Shown in pieces: positions 3,149 to 20,474 of a stretch of DNA of 33,638 nucleotides. The notes beneath the pieces are model-generated. The model saw only the letters and a list, made by a program, of their open reading frames with translations. It was not told the DNA's origin and did no database searches. The DNA comes from a virus, in the IMG/VR virus record IMGVR_UViG_3300023179_000307, positions 1 to 33,638 of that record, one strand, 5' to 3'. Position numbers and translations under genes: made by a program. Within the stretch, counting starts at the first letter, position 1, and every line of letters starts with the position of its first letter.

Positions 3149-3542
3149 GCGTCAGCAGCTGTGGATCAGTTCGGAGCTGTCGCGCCAGAAGGCGCGGCGC
3201 TGGGTTGATCGTGTGCCGTTAGGGTGGACGCTGGTTTTCCAGCCGCCCCGGCGCTCGACGCAGCAAAACGCCAAGCTCCATGCGATGCTGAGTGAAGTTT
3301 CCCGGCAGGTGGTCTGGTACGGCGTCAAGCTGAGCGTCGAGGACTGGAAGCGCATCTTTGCGGCCTCGCTGCAGAAAGTTCGCGTTGTGCCGGGCATCGA
3401 TGCGGGCACGTTCGTGCCGGTCGGGCTTCGCACCCGCGAGATGAGCCCGGAAGAAATGAACGACATGATCGAGCTTGTCTTCGCCTTCGGCGCGGAACGG
3501 GGCGTGGTGTTCCGCGCGGCCGAATATGAGAGGGCGGCGTGA
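3141..3542 (+). CDS. ninB: NinB-like recombination protein
   Basis: This 133-aa protein resembles lambda NinB (Orf), a mediator that binds single-stranded DNA and SSB to help load annealing proteins. The family pattern is present: a basic N-terminus, then QQNAKLHAMLSEVSRQV and VEDWKRIFAASL. RVVPGIDAGTFVPVGLRT and the C-terminal EEMNDMIELVFAFGAERGV follow. The length matches the family (about 140 aa). It overlaps the erf stop by 8 nt and the next start in GTGA, so it is translated with its functional partner. Confidence 0.9.
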   Translation: MAERQQLWISSELSRQKARRWVDRVPLGWTLVFQPPRRSTQQNAKLHAMLSEVSRQVVWYGVKLSVEDWKRIFAASLQKVRVVPGIDAGTFVPVGLRTREMSPEEMNDMIELVFAFGAERGVVFRAAEYERAA

Positions 3543-4450: not shown

Positions 4451-4970
4451 CTGCGCCGCGCCGTCGCTGCTGACGGCCAAGCTGACCGTCCTCATGGCCA
4501 AGACCGCCCCGCGCCAGCCGATCGACGAGGCGGTGCAGCGGGAAGTCCTCAAGGACTACGTGACCATGCTGATGGAGTTCTCCGGGCGGGTCGCCATCGA
4601 GGCGATTGAGCGGTGGCCGCGCACCGACAACGGGCGCTGGTTTCCGACCTGGAACGAACTGCGCGACCTCTGCCTTGAAGTCGCGCGCAGCCGGCAGACG
4701 CCGCGGCCGCAGCCCACCGAACCCGCCCGCCGGGACACCGCCGACGAGCGCGCCGAGATGCGCCAGCTGATGCTCGCCCTAAAGCTGGCCACGCTGGCTC
4801 ACAACGGCAAGCAGGTGGACACCTCCGTGCTGGATGAGACCGGCATGGCCGAGTTCGTGCGCGTCCGCGGGCTCTACGCCGCCGATCAGGGCCGCCTTGA
4901 AGGCATCGCCAAGGCGAAGGGCTTCCGCAACGTCAACGAACTCATGGCCAACCGGAGGCTGACCCCATGA
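4335..4970 (+). CDS. Hypothetical protein in the lambda P (helicase-loader) position
   Basis: I place the start at GTG 4335 because AAGGAG (4322-4327) lies 7 nt upstream; this overlaps the initiator gene by 116 nt in another frame. A later ATG at 4494 would avoid the overlap but has no ribosome site. The 211-aa product has a low-complexity Pro/Ser/Ala N-terminus and a folded-looking middle: VLKDYVTMLMEFSGRVAIEA, then RWPRTDNGRWFPTWNELRD. A charged helical end follows. Its location directly after an O-like initiator is where a helicase loader would be, but I see no AAA motif or clear homology, so that role is inference only. Confidence 0.75.
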   Translation: MTSISQRAAIPGAHDPASTSPPTLRESSLPPSGPKASADCAAPSLLTAKLTVLMAKTAPRQPIDEAVQREVLKDYVTMLMEFSGRVAIEAIERWPRTDNGRWFPTWNELRDLCLEVARSRQTPRPQPTEPARRDTADERAEMRQLMLALKLATLAHNGKQVDTSVLDETGMAEFVRVRGLYAADQGRLEGIAKAKGFRNVNELMANRRLTP

Positions 4971-5494
4971 ACCGCATCCTTGAACGCGCCCGCCAGCAAG
5001 CCTGGGACCAGCGCGCCGAGTATGGCCGCGACGCCGGCCCTGCGCGGGACCGCTGGTGCGTCCATCGCCTGATGCGCGCCGGCCACCTCGCCCCGGCCCA
5101 GCACGCCGCCGCGGTGCGCCTGTCGCGGCTGCTGGAGCGCGCCGCCGGCCAGACGGCCTCAGGCGGCTCAGGAGAGGCCGTGGACGGCGGGGGCGGCGAC
5201 CCCCATGCCCGGATGTGGGATGCCTCTGTGTGCGCTCGTGAGGCCGAATGCGCGCGGGCTGCGGTGATGACCAACCTTCCCCCCGCCGACCGGGGCCTGC
5301 GGATCCACATCTTCGACCTCGCCATGGAGTTCCCGCACCGGTCCACGCCCGAGGCCATGGCCGAAGCCGGCCTCGCCCATGGCGGCAAGCAACACGCGGC
5401 GTTCATCGCCCACCTGCAGACCGCGCTCGACCTGCTGGCGATCTATTTTGACGCCGTGGACGCCGCCGTCGCGCGGCAGGCAAGAAGCGCTTGA
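4967..5494 (+). CDS. Hypothetical protein in the late-regulator position
   Basis: This 175-aa protein overlaps its predecessor by ATGA. The N-terminal half is Arg/Ala-rich and helical (RDRWCVHRLMRAGHLAPAQH, then RLSRLLERAAG). A Gly-rich linker (about residues 66-76) leads to a C-terminal half with a helix ending LQTALDLLAIYFDAVDA. It is the last gene of the early block before the HNH gene and the structured RNA, the place of antiterminators or late regulators in lambdoid maps. No motif confirms such a role; family unknown. Confidence 0.75.
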   Translation: MNRILERARQQAWDQRAEYGRDAGPARDRWCVHRLMRAGHLAPAQHAAAVRLSRLLERAAGQTASGGSGEAVDGGGGDPHARMWDASVCAREAECARAAVMTNLPPADRGLRIHIFDLAMEFPHRSTPEAMAEAGLAHGGKQHAAFIAHLQTALDLLAIYFDAVDAAVARQARSA

Positions 5495-5537
5495 CGGCGT
5501 ACACAAATCACCCTTTAAGGACGTTAAGGCCTACGTC

Positions 5538-6047
5538 GTGCGCCTAAAACCAACCCACAAAGAGATTCAAGCCGCTTTGGCTTACGACCCTGAAACGGGC
5601 GAATTCCGTTGGCGTGCCGACGGGCGCTCGGCTGGGACAATGGTCCGCAGGAAAGTCCCTGTGGGCAGACGCAGGGTTAGCCGGTATTTGGTGATCTCGA
5701 TCGGCCGACGATCGTGGCCAGCGCATAGGCTGGCGTGGTTCTACATGACAGAGCGTTGGCCAGGGCCGGTGATCGACCACATTAATGGCGATGGTTTGGA
5801 CAACAGGTTTTGCAACCTTCGGGAAGCAACCAAAGCTCAAAATGCTCACAATTCGAAGCATGCGCCCTTAAACAACACTCATGGCTTGAAGGGCGCGTCT
5901 CGCAACAAAAACACGGGCCGTTGGCAGGCCCGTATCAAGGTGAACGGGTTTACTCGTTGCCTAGGAAGTTTCGATACCGCTGAAGAAGCCCACGAGGCTT
6001 ACAAGGCGGCATCGAAGCAGTATTTTGGGGAGTATTCCCCGTACTAG
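5538..6047 (+). CDS. Free-standing HNH homing-type endonuclease with AP2 domain
   Basis: This 169-aa protein combines an HNH nuclease (about residues 62-105) with a C-terminal AP2 DNA-binding domain (about 116-160). The nuclease core reads AHRLAWFYM, then VIDHINGDGLDNRFCNLR with D80-H81, N83 and N89 in the usual places, followed by QNAHN. The AP2 part reads LKGASRNKNTGRW, then CLGSFDTAEEAHEAY. Such proteins are selfish endonucleases that cut an allele lacking the insertion. GTG 5538 is chosen for TTAAGG (5524-5529) 8 nt upstream. Base composition is visibly richer in A+T than neighbouring genes, consistent with recent acquisition. A structured non-coding stretch begins 2 nt after its stop. 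Confidence 0.9.
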   Translation: MRLKPTHKEIQAALAYDPETGEFRWRADGRSAGTMVRRKVPVGRRRVSRYLVISIGRRSWPAHRLAWFYMTERWPGPVIDHINGDGLDNRFCNLREATKAQNAHNSKHAPLNNTHGLKGASRNKNTGRWQARIKVNGFTRCLGSFDTAEEAHEAYKAASKQYFGEYSPY

Positions 6048-6048
6048 T

Positions 6049-6194
6049 TTCCGCCGCCCTGCGTCCCCCACCCTGCAGAGCGCGCCCGATGCAAATCGGG
6101 CGGGCGGCGGAATCCCTTTCGGCGCGGTCCCCCTTCAGTCCTCCCGACACGCGCTGCGGCGGCCACCCGCGCCACCGCTGGGACCGCGCCGAAA
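6049..6194 (+). ncRNA. Strongly structured non-coding element, two long helices
   Basis: Two perfect long inverted repeats sit side by side. Helix 1 pairs 6049-6059 with 6102-6112 (11 bp) and encloses a smaller hairpin, 6084-6090 with 6095-6101, closed by a GCAA tetraloop. Helix 2 pairs 6117-6131 with 6180-6194 (15 bp) and encloses 48 nt carrying CCTCCC (6140-6145), complementary to a Shine-Dalgarno. Only 4 nt separate the helices, and no T-run follows, so this is not a simple terminator. It fills the gap between the HNH stop and the ribosome site GGAG (6201-6204) of the next gene. It could be an sRNA, an RNA antiterminator, a leader controlling the next gene or part of a mobile element; the class is not identified. 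Confidence 0.55.
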
Positions 6195-6210
6195 CCCCAT
6201 GGAGAAACCC

Positions 6211-6582
6211 ATGACGCCAGAAATTCAGGAAGCCGAGGGCGCGCTGAAAGCCGCCCGTGAGCGGGAAGCCAAGGTGCGCGCGGAATCCGCCGAAGCCATC
6301 ACGCTTGCCAACGCCAATATCGACCGCGCCGCAGACGACACGGCCAGGGCCGTCGCCAGGCTGCGCGGGCTCTATGAGGGCCAGTTCTCCGCGCTGGAAG
6401 CCCGCCGCAGGCGCGCGCTCGGCGAGGGGGATCTGAACGAGGCCATCGAGGCGGCGTATCAGCCGCCGCCTGATCCTGAACCCGAGCCGCTGGCTCACCC
6501 GCTCTATGGCGGCCACGCCTACAACAACGGCCACGGCTACCATGTGCCGGGCGAGATCACCGTCGAAAGCAATCCGGCATGA
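6211..6582 (+). CDS. Hypothetical coiled-coil protein, 123 aa
   Basis: ATG 6211 has GGAG 6 nt upstream (6201-6204) and is preferred to ATG 6199. Residues 1-85 are a heptad-like charged helix (EIQEAEGALKAAREREAKVR and similar) with RGLYEGQFSALEARRRRALG. A proline-rich segment (PPPDPEPEP) and a His/Tyr/Gly-rich tail (GGHAYNNGHGYHV) follow. It overlaps the next gene by ATGA. No family is recognised; it opens the block downstream of the structured element and may be translationally controlled by it. Confidence 0.75.
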   Translation: MTPEIQEAEGALKAAREREAKVRAESAEAITLANANIDRAADDTARAVARLRGLYEGQFSALEARRRRALGEGDLNEAIEAAYQPPPDPEPEPLAHPLYGGHAYNNGHGYHVPGEITVESNPA

Positions 6583-6962
6583 CCGGCGCGGTCTCCCTCA
6601 CCGCCCACAAGGGCCAGCGCGACGAGGCCATGGCCCGCGTCCAGCAGCAGGTGGTCGAAACCGCCGTCGCGCAGGTCAAGGCCCACATGACCACCGACAC
6701 GGTGCAGGACGCCCTCATCGAGCGCGCGGTCCGCAAGGCCACGGACGCCGTGATCGCTGAGGAGCGCCGGATCGGCCGCGCCCATGGCTGGCGCGGCGCC
6801 CTGTTCGGGGCCTTCGGCGGGGCCGGGATTGCGCTGTTCGTGATCTGGATCATGCTGGGCGGGCTGACGCAGTCGGCGGCCTTCATGGTCAAGATGGGCG
6901 TCTATGAGCGCCAGCAGGACCAGCTCAACCAGGAGCTGAGCGAGAAGGTGCACGGGCAATGA
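6579..6962 (+). CDS. Single-span membrane protein, 127 aa
   Basis: The N-terminal ~70 residues are a charged amphipathic helix (for example DEAMARVQQQVVETAVAQVK). One membrane span follows at about 73-95 (GALFGAFGGAGIALFVIWIM), then a short helical tail rich in Gln and Glu. It is coupled on both sides by ATGA overlaps. Unknown family. The helix-span-helix shape could suit a holin-like or envelope-anchored accessory protein, but the location before the packaging genes gives no firm clue. Confidence 0.75.
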   Translation: MTGAVSLTAHKGQRDEAMARVQQQVVETAVAQVKAHMTTDTVQDALIERAVRKATDAVIAEERRIGRAHGWRGALFGAFGGAGIALFVIWIMLGGLTQSAAFMVKMGVYERQQDQLNQELSEKVHGQ

Positions 6963-7207
6963 TCAAGCCAAAACTTACCAAGCTCATCAGCATGAGCGAC
7001 GCGGCCAAAATCGCCTATTCTTTGGATTGGTACGACGCCAAAGCGCGCAAGGCTGCAAAGGAAGTGAAGCGCGGGTATGAGGTGCTGGGGCTGTCTATTT
7101 ACGGTGCTATGGAATCCGCTGAGCAGGAATGGATGGAATCCGCTGAGCAGGAATGGCAGGACTTGAAAGCTGGCATGAGCTTCCGCACAGACCCGACGCT
7201 GCAATGA
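6959..7207 (+). CDS. Hypothetical 82-aa protein with duplicated octapeptide
   Basis: A small soluble protein starting in an ATGA overlap. The N-terminal 45 residues are basic and helical (MIKPKLTKLISMSDAAKIAY). Residues 51-66 are two identical copies of MESAEQEW, encoded by a perfect 24-bp tandem repeat (7109-7156). A short tail ends in an ATGA overlap with the next peptide. Unknown function; the duplication looks recent because the DNA copies are identical. Confidence 0.7.
   Translation: MIKPKLTKLISMSDAAKIAYSLDWYDAKARKAAKEVKRGYEVLGLSIYGAMESAEQEWMESAEQEWQDLKAGMSFRTDPTLQ
7109..7156 (+). repeat. Perfect 24-bp tandem duplication
   Basis: Two identical 24-bp units (7109-7132 and 7133-7156) encode MESAEQEW twice, in frame, in the 82-aa gene. 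Each unit carries a GAATC (GANTC) site. No third copy is seen. Confidence 0.95.
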
Positions 7208-7272
7208 TTCTCGCCGCGTTCATCCTGCTCGCCACCGCCGCCGCAGCCACCACGGAGATGATGGAGCTATGA
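7204..7272 (+). CDS. 22-aa hydrophobic peptide (possible)
   Basis: A very short frame linked to both neighbours by ATGA overlaps. It is one hydrophobic helix (MILAAFILLATAAAATTEMM). It may be a real membrane peptide or merely a translational bridge between genes. The unbroken ATGA chain is the only support, so confidence is low. Confidence 0.35.
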   Translation: MILAAFILLATAAAATTEMMEL

Positions 7273-7541
7273 AGCGCGAGAGCGCGCCGGAGGTCCTGAG
7301 CAGGCTTTACGACGTGAAGGAGGCAGCGCTTGCCTTTCGGGTCGACCCTGTCGCGGTCGCCCACGCCGTTCTTGCCGACATTGGCCCGTTGCGCTTGGAG
7401 GGCGATCTGCGCCACAAGGCCGAGCAGTCGAGACAGTACATCATGAAGGCGTGCATGGCCGCTAGGCGGTACGCCGGACGCGAGGCACTTGTCCGCTTGG
7501 ACTGGGTTTTGAAAGCGCCTGAAAAAGGGGAGCGGCAATGA
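7269..7541 (+). CDS. Hypothetical protein, 90 aa
   Basis: A soluble, basic, helical protein (for example EVLSRLYDVKEAALAFRVD and EALVRLDWVLKAPEKGERQ). It starts by ATGA and ends by ATGA, with no recognised domain. It belongs to the small-gene block between the structured element and the terminase. Confidence 0.68.
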   Translation: MKRESAPEVLSRLYDVKEAALAFRVDPVAVAHAVLADIGPLRLEGDLRHKAEQSRQYIMKACMAARRYAGREALVRLDWVLKAPEKGERQ

Positions 7542-7651
7542 GCCTCGATTTCAATTCGATCTTCCAGAAGGTCCTTGACGGCGTGTTCACCGGCGTTGGC
7601 GTCGTGATCGCCGTGGCGCTGGTGCGCAAGTTCCTGCCGGGCGTGATCTGA
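7538..7651 (+). CDS. 37-aa single-span membrane peptide
   Basis: Starts by ATGA overlap and has AAGGGG upstream (7525-7530). After a short polar N-terminus (MSLDFNSIFQKVLDG) residues 15-33 form a hydrophobic helix ending in RKF. The stop overlaps the following ATG (TGATG). The size and shape suit a small phage membrane peptide; the function is unknown. Confidence 0.5.
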   Translation: MSLDFNSIFQKVLDGVFTGVGVVIAVALVRKFLPGVI

Positions 7652-7902
7652 TGCGGTCCTGGGAAGAGGCCATGGCGCAGGCGCCTGACTTTGAGGACAG
7701 AGAACTCTTGGTTACGGCAATCAATGCCGCGCAGCAATCGTACCGGGCCGCGCTGGACGATGCGTTCGGCGACCTCTGGCGCGACATTGCGCAAAGGTCA
7801 GAGCAGAAGTTCCTGAATGCGTTCGCCAAGGAACTGGCGGCGCGCATTTCTAAACTGGAAGTAACTAGAAATGCCGGCCGGACGCCCGAAGGGCACGCCT
7901 AA
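7651..7902 (+). CDS. Hypothetical protein, 83 aa
   Basis: A small, mainly helical, acidic-then-basic protein (MRSWEEAMAQAPDFEDREL, then AFAKELAARISKLEVTRN). Its last ~10 codons overlap the start of the small terminase gene in another frame by 32 nt. No family recognised. Confidence 0.65.
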   Translation: MRSWEEAMAQAPDFEDRELLVTAINAAQQSYRAALDDAFGDLWRDIAQRSEQKFLNAFAKELAARISKLEVTRNAGRTPEGHA

Positions 7903-8167
7903 GACCGGTGGGCGCCAGAAGGGCGTCCCCAACAAGGCCACGGCTGACGTCAAGGCGCTGGCGCAGAAGCACGGCCCGGAAGCTATCGCCGAAGCTGTCC
8001 GCATCATGAAGGAAAGCGAAAGCGATCCGGCGCGCATGGCCGCGATCAACTGCATCCTGGACCGCGCCTATGGCAAGGCCACGCAGATGGTCGCCAACGC
8101 CGATGGCGAGGCGTTCCGCACGGTCACCGAGATCGTCCTGAAGGGCGTACGTGCAACACACGATTGA
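7871..8167 (+). CDS. Probable terminase small subunit
   Basis: A 98-aa protein directly upstream of, and overlapping, the large terminase. It begins with a Gly/Arg/Lys-rich DNA-contacting stretch (MPAGRPKGTPKTGGRQKG, then VPNKATADVKALA). Two helices follow, with ARMAAINCILDRAYGKATQ typical of this phage family. Small subunits recognise the packaging site and regulate the large subunit's ATPase. GGAAG (7859-7863) precedes the ATG. The assignment combines the sequence pattern and gene order; no defining catalytic motif exists for the family. Confidence 0.72.
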   Translation: MPAGRPKGTPKTGGRQKGVPNKATADVKALAQKHGPEAIAEAVRIMKESESDPARMAAINCILDRAYGKATQMVANADGEAFRTVTEIVLKGVRATHD

Positions 8168-9440
8168 GATGCCGGACAAGCTGGTCCCGGTGTTCAACGG
8201 CAGCGCGCGGTATCGCGGTGCCTTCGGTGGCCGGGGCAGCGCCAAGACGCGCACCTTCGCCAAGATGGCTGCGTTGAAGGGCGCGGTGGCCGCCGCCGGC
8301 GGGCAGGACGGGATCATTCTGTGCGCCCGCGCCTACATGAATTCCCTGGACGATAGCTCGCTGGCCGAAGTGAAGGCCGCGATTGCGTCCGACCCATGGC
8401 TGGCGAACGCCTACACGATGACGGAGAAGACCGTCACTACGGTGGACGGGCGGGTGGCGTTCAAGTTCGCGGGCCTGATGCGCAACATCGAGTCCATCAA
8501 GTCCAAGGCCCGCATCCTGCTGTGCTGGGTGGATGAGGCCGAAGAGGTGCCCGAGCAGAGCTGGGTGGCGCTCATCCCCACGGTGCGCGAGTACGGCTCC
8601 GAGATCTGGGTGACGTGGAACCCCAAGCGCCGGGGAGGCCCGACCGACAAGCGCTTTCGCAACGCGCAAGACCCGGACATGAAGATCGTCGAGATGAACT
8701 GGCGCGACAATCCGTGGTTCCCCGCGGTGCTTGAACGCGAGCGCCAGGTAGACCTGCGTGACCGGCCGGACCAGTACGAGCATATCTGGGAAGGCGACTA
8801 CGCGACGGCGGCGACGGGCGCTTATTACGCCGAGCAGCTGCTTGCGGCGCGGCATCAGGGCCGCATCGGCCGCGTGTCGCCGGACCCGATGCTGCCGATC
8901 CTGACGTACCATGACATCGGCGGGGCCGGCGCGAAGGCGGACCTCTATGTGATGTGGGTGGTGCAGCGGGTGGACCGGGAAATCCGGGTGCTTGATCACT
9001 ATGCGAGCCAGGGACAGACGCTGGGCTATCATGCGCAATGGCTGCGTGAGCGCGGCTGGGGTCGGGCGGAGATCATCCTGCCGCATGACGGCATCAACGC
9101 CAACAACCTGACCGGCAAGCGCTATGAGGACCACTGGCGCGATGCGGGCTTTTCGGCGCGCACGATCCCGAACCAGGGCAAAGGCGCCGCCGGGATGCGC
9201 ATTGAGGCGCTGCGGCGGCTCTTCCCGCAGATGTGGTTCAACGAGGCGACGACGGAGCAGGGCCGGCTGATGCTGGGGCTCTATGCGCCGAAATACCATC
9301 CAACCACCGGCGACGATTTGGGGCCTGACCACGATAATTCGCACGATGCGGACGCGCTGGGGCTGATGGCGATCGATTACCAGCCGCCGCGTGTGCTGAG
9401 CGACATGCCGCTCAGGGCGCGGTTCGGCACGATGGCGTGA
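8151..9440 (+). CDS. terL: Terminase large subunit (packaging ATPase-nuclease)
   Basis: This 429-aa protein pumps DNA into the prohead and cuts the concatemer. The ATPase domain has a Walker A, GGRGSAKT (residues 26-33), and a Walker B, ILLCWVDEAEE, with D128-E129. The RNase H-like nuclease domain follows, with acidic positions in YHDIGG, HDGINANN and the C-terminal DHDNSHDADALGL. The length is normal for Terminase_3/PBSX-like subunits. I take the GTG at 8151, because AAGGG lies 5 nt upstream and it overlaps the small-subunit gene; ATG 8169 is the alternative and would lose six residues. Confidence 0.95.
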   Translation: MQHTIEMPDKLVPVFNGSARYRGAFGGRGSAKTRTFAKMAALKGAVAAAGGQDGIILCARAYMNSLDDSSLAEVKAAIASDPWLANAYTMTEKTVTTVDGRVAFKFAGLMRNIESIKSKARILLCWVDEAEEVPEQSWVALIPTVREYGSEIWVTWNPKRRGGPTDKRFRNAQDPDMKIVEMNWRDNPWFPAVLERERQVDLRDRPDQYEHIWEGDYATAATGAYYAEQLLAARHQGRIGRVSPDPMLPILTYHDIGGAGAKADLYVMWVVQRVDREIRVLDHYASQGQTLGYHAQWLRERGWGRAEIILPHDGINANNLTGKRYEDHWRDAGFSARTIPNQGKGAAGMRIEALRRLFPQMWFNEATTEQGRLMLGLYAPKYHPTTGDDLGPDHDNSHDADALGLMAIDYQPPRVLSDMPLRARFGTMA

Positions 9441-9447
9441 GGGGTTC

Positions 9448-9951
9448 ATGTTTCTAGTACGCAGCACGATCACGCGACCGGCGGACGTTACGGCCTATGC
9501 GTCCGGCGATCTGGTCGCCAACAGCACGACGGCGGGCAGCGTCACGCCGTTCACGTTCACGCTGGATGGCTATGCGCAGCCGGTGAAGATCAGCCGCTTC
9601 ATCATGCGATCCAGCAACGACACGGTGACCAACAAGAGCTTTGAGCTGCTGCTGTTCTCGGTGTCCCCGACCGTCACCAATGGCGACAACGGCGCTTTCG
9701 CGGTGACAGCGGCGAACGGCACGAACAATTTCGGCGGCATGTTCGGATCGACGGCGGCCAAGGCCACCGGCGGCGGCGCGATCAACTATTTCTACCCGAT
9801 GGACAGTGCGGCGACCTTCGTGAACGGCTGGCTGGAGCAGCACATGACGCTGCCGTTCTATGGCCTGCTGCGGGTCATGGCGGCGTACACGCCGGCGAGC
9901 GCCGAGACGTTCACCATCGCGGCCGAGTGCATCCCGATCAAGTACGGCTGA
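9448..9951 (+). CDS. Putative virion structural protein, 167 aa
   Basis: A soluble beta-rich protein (strings of Thr, Ser, Val and Phe such as TPFTFTLDGYAQPVKISRFI and KSFELLLFSVSPTVTN). It lies between the terminase and portal genes and its stop overlaps the portal start. The composition and position suggest a head decoration or accessory structural protein, but no family was recognised. Its beta-strand pattern and lack of charge clusters argue against a regulator. Confidence 0.75.
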   Translation: MFLVRSTITRPADVTAYASGDLVANSTTAGSVTPFTFTLDGYAQPVKISRFIMRSSNDTVTNKSFELLLFSVSPTVTNGDNGAFAVTAANGTNNFGGMFGSTAAKATGGGAINYFYPMDSAATFVNGWLEQHMTLPFYGLLRVMAAYTPASAETFTIAAECIPIKYG

Positions 9952-19012: not shown

Positions 19013-20474
19013 CCTGCCGCCGGGCCTGTCGCGCCGCGGCACGGTCTATCAGACGCAAGGCCGCTGGTATGATTCCAGCCTTGTGCGCTGGTTCAAGGGC
19101 GCAATGAAGCCGATCGGCGGGTGGGCCGCGCGCATCACGACGCCGGTGACCGGTGCGCCGCGCGCCATGGTGTCGTGGCGGGACAATTCCTCGATCCGCT
19201 ATTACGCGGTGGGCACGCATTCGAAGCTCTATGCGGCGACGTCGTCGCTGACGGCCATGGTGGACATCACGCCGGTCGGGTTCTCCGCCGGCCGCGCTGA
19301 TGCCACAAGCGGTGGCGGCTATGGCGTGGGCGTGTACGGCGCGGGAACCTATGGCACGCCGCGCGTGGACAATGTGAGCGTCCAGGACGCCAGCATGTGG
19401 ACGCTGGATGTCTTCGGCCCGTACCTCGTCGGCGCGATGTCCGACGACGGCAAGCTCTATAAATGGTCGCTGGACATTTCGACGCCGACAAAGGCCGCCG
19501 TCATTTCCGGCGCGCCGACCGGCAACAGCGCCTGCGTGGTGACGCCGGAGTTTTTCCTGATGGCGCTGGGCGCCGGCGGGGATCCCCGCAAGGTGCAATG
19601 GTCGGACCAGGCGGCGGAAACGACGTGGACGCCCTCCAGCACCAACCAGGCGGGGTCCTACACGATCCAGAGTCCGGGGCGGCTCATGTGCGGGAAGAAG
19701 ACCCGCGGCCAGACGCTGATCTTCACGGACACGGACGTGCATGTGGCGCGCTATATCGGCCTGCCGTTCGTCTATTCGATCGAGCGGGTAGGGGAGTCCT
19801 GCGGGATCATTTCCCGCGGCGCGGTGGTGGCGAGCGATACCCGCGCGATCTGGATGAGCCAGGCCGGGTTCTTTGCATGGGACGGCGGCGCGGTGATCCC
19901 GCTGGACTGCGATATCTATGACGCGATCTTTGGGGGCCTGAACTTCACGCAGCGGTCCAAGATCACCGCGATGCTCAATTCGCAGTTCAGCGAGGCGTGG
20001 TTCATGTTTCCGTCCGCGGCGTCGACCGAGAACGACAAGGTCGCGGTCTATAACTACGACGAGAACACATGGGCGTTGCACACCCTGACGCGCCTGTGCG
20101 GCGTCGATCGTGGCGTGTTCAATGCGCCGATCATGTTCAACGCCAGCGGCTACGCCTATGACCACGAAACCGGCTACACCTGGGACAGCACGCCATACGC
20201 CAAAAGCGGGCCGTTCGAGCTGGGCGCGGGCGACCGCATCACGCGGGTGCGGCGGCTCATTTTCGATGAGGCGACCAGCGGCGATGTGCGCGTGTCGCTC
20301 AAGGCCATGAACTGGCCGAACGGAACAGAGACCACCTACGGCCCCTATGCGTCGGGCAATCCGGTCAGCGTGCGCATGTCGGCGCGGCAGGTCTCGCAAT
20401 ATGTCGAGTTCCTGCGGGGCAATTCCCAGTGGGGCGCGCCGCGGGTCGACATTGTCCAGGGGAGCAAGCGCTGA
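18978..20474 (+). CDS. Tail nozzle/stabilisation protein, P22 gp10-like
   Basis: A 498-aa beta-rich protein; ATG 18978 gives the conserved N-terminus LLKIDLPPGLSRRGTVYQTQ, then GRWYDSSLVRWFKGAMKPIGG. This is followed by strand repeats (YKWSLDIS; FLMALGAGGDPRKVQWSD; FTDTDVHVARYIG) typical of the propeller-like hub of short tails. In P22, gp10 sits below the gp4 adaptor and retains DNA in the head. The gene order (adaptor, small protein, nozzle) supports the role. It overlaps the preceding gene by 35 nt. Confidence 0.75.
   Translation: MSAALSALLKIDLPPGLSRRGTVYQTQGRWYDSSLVRWFKGAMKPIGGWAARITTPVTGAPRAMVSWRDNSSIRYYAVGTHSKLYAATSSLTAMVDITPVGFSAGRADATSGGGYGVGVYGAGTYGTPRVDNVSVQDASMWTLDVFGPYLVGAMSDDGKLYKWSLDISTPTKAAVISGAPTGNSACVVTPEFFLMALGAGGDPRKVQWSDQAAETTWTPSSTNQAGSYTIQSPGRLMCGKKTRGQTLIFTDTDVHVARYIGLPFVYSIERVGESCGIISRGAVVASDTRAIWMSQAGFFAWDGGAVIPLDCDIYDAIFGGLNFTQRSKITAMLNSQFSEAWFMFPSAASTENDKVAVYNYDENTWALHTLTRLCGVDRGVFNAPIMFNASGYAYDHETGYTWDSTPYAKSGPFELGAGDRITRVRRLIFDEATSGDVRVSLKAMNWPNGTETTYGPYASGNPVSVRMSARQVSQYVEFLRGNSQWGAPRVDIVQGSKR

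Follow-up and report, generated by a model that had tools for sequence, protein, structure and literature searches.

The 33,638-base IMG/VR virus record IMGVR_UViG_3300023179_000307 (G+C 66.7%), hereafter the window, carries two adjacent helices before its late operon, and the first of these is probably a genuine leader hairpin, conserved and acting in cis, at the head of a late operon of the Q type. Its pairing is kept in relatives while its letters change, which argues for a real leader element, and the locus as a whole reads, by analogy, as the Q-like late control region of a temperate phage. A loosely defined 'structured RNA' thus becomes a defined leader element with a likely place in how an uncharacterised lineage of phages controls its late genes. 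The initial annotation had reported an unexplained structured RNA ahead of the late operon; that description is borne out, and its coordinates for both helices, the GCAA cap, CCTCCC and GGAG were all correct on re-check.

Helix 1 pairs TTCCGCCGCCC (6049-6059) with GGGCGGCGGAA (6102-6112) over 11 bp around a 42-nt loop, and helix 2 pairs TTTCGGCGCGGTCCC (6117-6131) with GGGACCGCGCCGAAA (6180-6194) over 15 bp around a 48-nt loop (Table 1). An exhaustive scan of the whole window for inverted repeats with perfect arms of at least 10 bp and loops of 3-70 nt returned helix 2 as the longest and helix 1 as tied second, both among the three longest. The two-helix stretch folds at -91.2 kcal/mol, compared with -67.4 ± 4.1 kcal/mol for shuffled sequence (z -5.9; 0 of 200 shuffles as low), and the two hairpins folded separately give z-scores of -4.1 and -4.7. 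There is no T-run at the two-helix element. Rfam has no match in the window at the gathering threshold and, near the element at E up to 5, only two sub-threshold junk matches. The GGAG at 6201-6204 lies 6 nt before the ATG at 6211.

Table 1 Features of the late control locus and landmarks of the window.
Feature	Position	Strand	Remarks
O-like replication gene	at 3539		Window landmark
Regulator-like gene in the Q position, 175 aa	4967..5494	+	Homologues immediately precede this leader in L022, L054, L055 and L067
Possible remnant or remodelled late promoter, TTGACG-17 nt-TTTAAG	5491..5519	+	TTGACG overlaps stop codon; below promoter-scan threshold
HNH/AP2 endonuclease gene	5538..6047	+	Pfam HNH_3 4.6e-12; AP2 below cut-off; phrog_99 1.1e-60
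Helix 1, probable conserved leader hairpin	6049..6112	+	Relatives' model ranks this stretch best in the window; 7 of 11 pairs doubly changed
Loop motif GTCCCCCACC	6063..6072	+	Syntenic loops: identical in L022; one C fewer in L054; GTTCCCCA in L055 and L067
GCAA-capped 7-bp hairpin inside helix 1	6084..6101 (arms 6084-6090/6095-6101)	+	None in relatives
Helix 2, with CCTCCC at 6140-6145	6117..6194	+	Additional in this phage; no counterpart in four relatives
Small CATGG-AGAAAC-CCATG hairpin around GGAG, translation start of gene 6211	6196..6215	+	Similar CCATGG-SD-CCATGG in relatives
Gene 6211, first gene after the leader, 123 aa	6211..6582	+	No relatives found
Membrane-protein-like gene	6579..6962	+	Homologous to first late gene of four relatives
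Terminase	at 8151		Window landmark; hairpin locus ~2 kb upstream
Portal	at 9927		Window landmark

Four IMG/VR contigs served as relatives: L022, found via a terminase search and the sole locus among those with a homologue of the regulator-like gene at 4967-5494; L054 and L055, found with an alignment of the two regulator-like proteins of the window and L022; and L067, found by a portal search that otherwise added just one short contig. All four share one order, namely the regulator-like gene, TTGACR over its stop codon, a terminator-like hairpin, a long helix and the first late gene. The -10 hexamer is CATGAT (CATCTT in L067), and a conserved GGGAYCAGTTT lies between the -35 and -10 hexamers. 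In three of the four relatives, a correspondingly placed TTGACR-17/18-CATGAT passes the consensus scan, with 0 to 0.1 such sites expected; TTGACG-17-CATCTT of L067 fails that scan. The terminator-like hairpin has ~10-11 bp followed by a short T-run (TTTT), and this hairpin with its approximately four T suggests a terminator, L055 alone among the four passing the strict T criterion of the terminator scan. Downstream of it stands the long helix, enclosing a GUYCCCCA loop, and then a CCATGG-SD-CCATGG arrangement before the small membrane-protein-like gene, which alignment and hmmsearch identify as the homologue of window 6579-6962. Pattern matches in L050, L051 and L052 were set aside as chance, with no matching gene context in the sequence examined. 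Upstream of the regulator gene, at 907-1102, L022 also has ACTGTCGTT/AACGACAG repeats clustered with inverted repeats, which together have an operator- or origin-like look.

Helix 1 is likely homologous to the long helices of these relatives, given a covariance model match and a motif scan together with identical position. The model, R1, was built from L022, L054 and L055 only, with the window left out. Applied to the full window with every filter disabled, it scores 6048-6113 highest, with an E value of 0.0004 on the - strand; on the + strand this stretch comes next at E 0.045, level with a chance match at 19423-19494. Both strands match because the arms are nearly self-symmetric, beginning TTCCGC and ending GCGGAA. 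Plain sequence similarity of helix 1 to L022 is modest (8 of 1,000 shuffles as good), and the same shuffle test found no significant similarity to L054, L055 or L067. Soon after its regulator gene, L022 has a perfect 11-bp helix whose loop holds GCGTCCCCCACCC, 13 letters identical to the helix 1 loop. In 1.5 Mb of strand, the C-rich motif, picked after seeing the five leaders, occurs inside an inverted repeat of at least 9 bp in those five leaders and in three other matches.

Covariation carries most of the argument for a conserved structure. Across 11 aligned pairs in five phages, a small sample in which three are close to each other, all 55 of 55 cells are paired and 7 of the 11 pairs have changed on both sides; 0 of 500 shuffles match this result, apart from a single instance on one of the measures, and the sliding controls fall far short. 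The arms were aligned by hand, because plain MAFFT misplaced the L067 stem, and two bulges (one in L054, one in L067) were removed; an alignment that included a shortened copy of the window hairpin was discarded. Much of the signal is due to L067, in which TTGGCCCTCCC stands in place of TTCCGCYGGCS. The flanks of this stem (gene, promoter/terminator block and RBS) share 0.80-0.97 identity with their counterparts in L054 and L055, and the regulators of L067 and L055 are 97% identical across the stretch available for comparison. Relative to L054, identity is 0.90 in the gene, 0.87 in promoter plus terminator and 0.91 in the RBS, against 0.50 in the 5' stem. A stem rewritten between conserved flanks points to a structure whose stem letters do not matter. 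Each helix is more stable than its shuffled versions (z from -2.9 to -6.0). When the relatives were folded in sliding windows, however, the element did not stand out, and stability by itself is therefore no diagnostic. The initial annotation had named a lack of compensatory changes in homologues as evidence against its element: such changes were found for helix 1, and helix 2 is not in the relatives at all.

Additions particular to this phage surround the shared hairpin. Helix 2, and hence its CCUCCC loop, has no counterpart in the four relatives and was not picked up by the R1 model in the window, and the GCAA-capped inner hairpin is absent from all four. The HNH gene is absent at the corresponding place in L022, L054, L055 and L067. 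It starts shortly after TTGACGGCG (5491-5499) and ends beside helix 1, and a comparison of 5495-6047 with the relatives leaves only TTGACGGCG alike, letter for letter with L055. Because the gene occupies the place of the relatives' promoter and terminator, it is, on this comparison, a lineage-specific intruder and not a partner of the hairpin. The suggestion of a mobile-element RNA linked to the endonuclease fails on the same comparison, as the relatives retain the hairpin with no HNH gene there. No site passes the promoter scan of window 4900-8200, and no terminator-like site was found on the + strand of that interval, including after helix 2; TTGACG-17-TTTAAG at the regulator stop codon is a weak and speculative late-promoter candidate. 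With no recognisable late promoter in the window, transcription of the element is something we infer. The HNH gene is lodged in the regulatory gap that separates the late regulator from the late operon, which leaves one to ask by what means the phage now switches its virion genes on.

The regulator-like protein has no Pfam family, no PHROG family and no PDB sequence match. Its predicted model (pLDDT 64) best resembles sigma factor regions 3-4, with a Z of 5.3 that is weak and within chance for helical proteins; Foldseek with the first model gave nothing significant, and a second model was poor (pLDDT 50). Single-sequence scans for relatives of 4967-5494 and of gene 6211 found none, those of 4967-5494 emerging only once the terminase had led to L022, nor did a scan of the genome collection with the regulator; among 385 genomes of one class, the single regulator match contained three internal stop codons and was taken as noise. 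Position and the weak fold match suggest a Q-like nature, and the protein probably acts in the manner of phage Q or of GafZ from Caulobacter, enabling polymerase to read past a terminator. With its homologues in L022, L054, L055 and L067, it forms a candidate new family of late regulators that none of the searched libraries contains.

Described late control systems provide partial parallels. 21Q has a sigma-region-4-like helix-turn-helix (HTH) and binds between -35 and -10, where the QBE is located between the two hexamers (PMC6606751). The relatives resemble lambdoid Q late leaders (PR' and tR' in 21Q) in having a regulator-like gene directly upstream of the putative late promoter, a terminator-like hairpin between promoter and late genes, and a conserved sequence between -35 and -10, the place of the QBE in 21Q (PMC6606751). 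GafZ of Caulobacter crescentus, an alphaproteobacterium, comes from a GTA cluster; the available part of its description gives a predicted sigma-like HTH, a site between -35 and -10 and bypass of terminators before virion genes (PMC11150451), features like those proposed for the regulator, the two proteins being likened by description and not by homology. The same part of that account places the GafZ terminator after the first gene and describes no leader hairpin of the helix 1 kind (PMC11150451). For the regulator here, neither Pfam nor PHROGs reveals any sequence relationship to Q, and the promoter/terminator block is gone in the window. To our knowledge, Q leaders have not been described as carrying a long helix behind the terminator.

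If the relatives' layout is taken as ancestral, the regulator gene would be followed by a late promoter at its stop codon, a terminator-like hairpin ~15-50 nt into the late transcript, the long helix and then the RBS of the first late gene. A Q-like regulator would let polymerase through the terminator, and the helix, which in the relatives stands behind the terminator-like hairpin, would be present in read-through transcripts alone. The simplest role for helix 1 is most likely protection, processing or insulation of the late mRNA 5' end, with the helix shielding or processing that end of a long message and keeping the leader folded away from the RBS; a role in downstream antitermination or in translation is possible. 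Stem pairing would matter and stem sequence would not, and the C-rich GUYCCCCA loop, which is kept, is perhaps a contact point. In this phage, the HNH gene would have replaced the promoter/terminator block, and helix 2 is an extra hairpin. A bolder version is tentative and rather unlikely: the late-leader RNAs of these phages would form a class of their own, in which a hairpin found only in antiterminated transcripts has a stem selected for pairing yet rewritable wholesale and a C-rich loop that is kept, and acts together with a novel family of Q-like regulators, for instance to signal processivity or mRNA fate.

Other readings of the hairpin carry less probability than a conserved leader element. 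It might be the RNA of an antitermination complex of the put or nut kind, the nascent hairpin binding polymerase or a phage factor so that terminators further down the late operon are ignored. We regard this as improbable, even though the hairpin lies beside a Q-position gene and the late promoter, keeps both pairing and loop motif, and recalls put RNA, which acts as hairpins in the nascent transcript (PMC9378689). HK022 putRNA is, like the element in the window, a structured RNA near a phage operon start, and the two adjacent hairpins of the window bear a superficial likeness to it; putRNA differs in being ~70 nt with two stem-loops, in belonging to early operons and in preceding the terminators that it suppresses (PMC9378689). 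The relatives have one long hairpin and not the two conserved adjacent stem-loops of put, and this hairpin follows the promoter-adjacent terminator-like hairpin, on which it therefore cannot act. The L067 stem is also wholly different despite the 97% identical regulator. On these grounds, the initial proposal of a put-type antiterminator for the late promoter was not upheld: the relatives' helix is downstream of the promoter-proximal hairpin, single, and changeable in stem sequence.

A translation switch, in which ribosome entry at the first late gene is governed jointly by the leader hairpin and the small hairpin at the start codon and the C-rich loop binds a protein or RNA, seems similarly unlikely. 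The hairpin does lie immediately before the Shine-Dalgarno sequence, the CCATGG-SD-CCATGG layout is conserved and the loop motif is kept, but predicted folds show no pairing of helix 1 or its loop with the SD, and the minimum-energy folds of L054 and L067 lack the same start hairpin. Sequestration of GGAG by the helices, as first suggested, also found no support, since predicted folds pair the SD with neither helix 1 nor helix 2 and, in the window, a small hairpin of its own encloses it. Still less probable is that the inverted repeat works as DNA, as a site bound by a regulator dimer, a packaging protein or some other protein that recognises DNA. Covarying inverted arms cannot by themselves separate DNA from RNA, the R1 model matches both strands and the locus is ~2 kb upstream of terminase; however, the arms are ~40-60 nt apart, and those of L067 are entirely different though the L067 and L055 regulators share 97% identity, unlike a sequence-specific site.

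Cuckoo-type sRNAs of alphaproteobacteria have CCUCC-loop hairpins. That both helices form an anti-SD small RNA of this type is highly improbable: CCTCCC at 6140-6145 is in a hairpin loop, where the predicted fold exposes it within a small sub-hairpin, but it occurs in helix 2 only, which is missing from four of four relatives; the shared helix 1 motif, GUYCCCCA, has CCCCCA in the window and not CCUCC; there is no second CCUCC loop, and no terminator follows helix 2; CCUCCC is not conserved; and Rfam up to E 5 gives only the two junk matches. The initial anti-SD reading thus lacks comparative support.

The genes behind the leader differ among these phages. Gene 6211 has no counterpart in the four relatives, whose late genes start directly with the 6579-6962 homologue. 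A small gene lies directly after the membrane-protein gene in L054 (~7086-7290) and L067 (~975-1180) and is absent there in L055, which, on this comparison, is a recent insertion or loss. In the window, the gene at 6959-7207 contains an imperfect tandem repeat at 7110-7160, with GGAATCCGCTGAGCAGGAATGG twice in succession.
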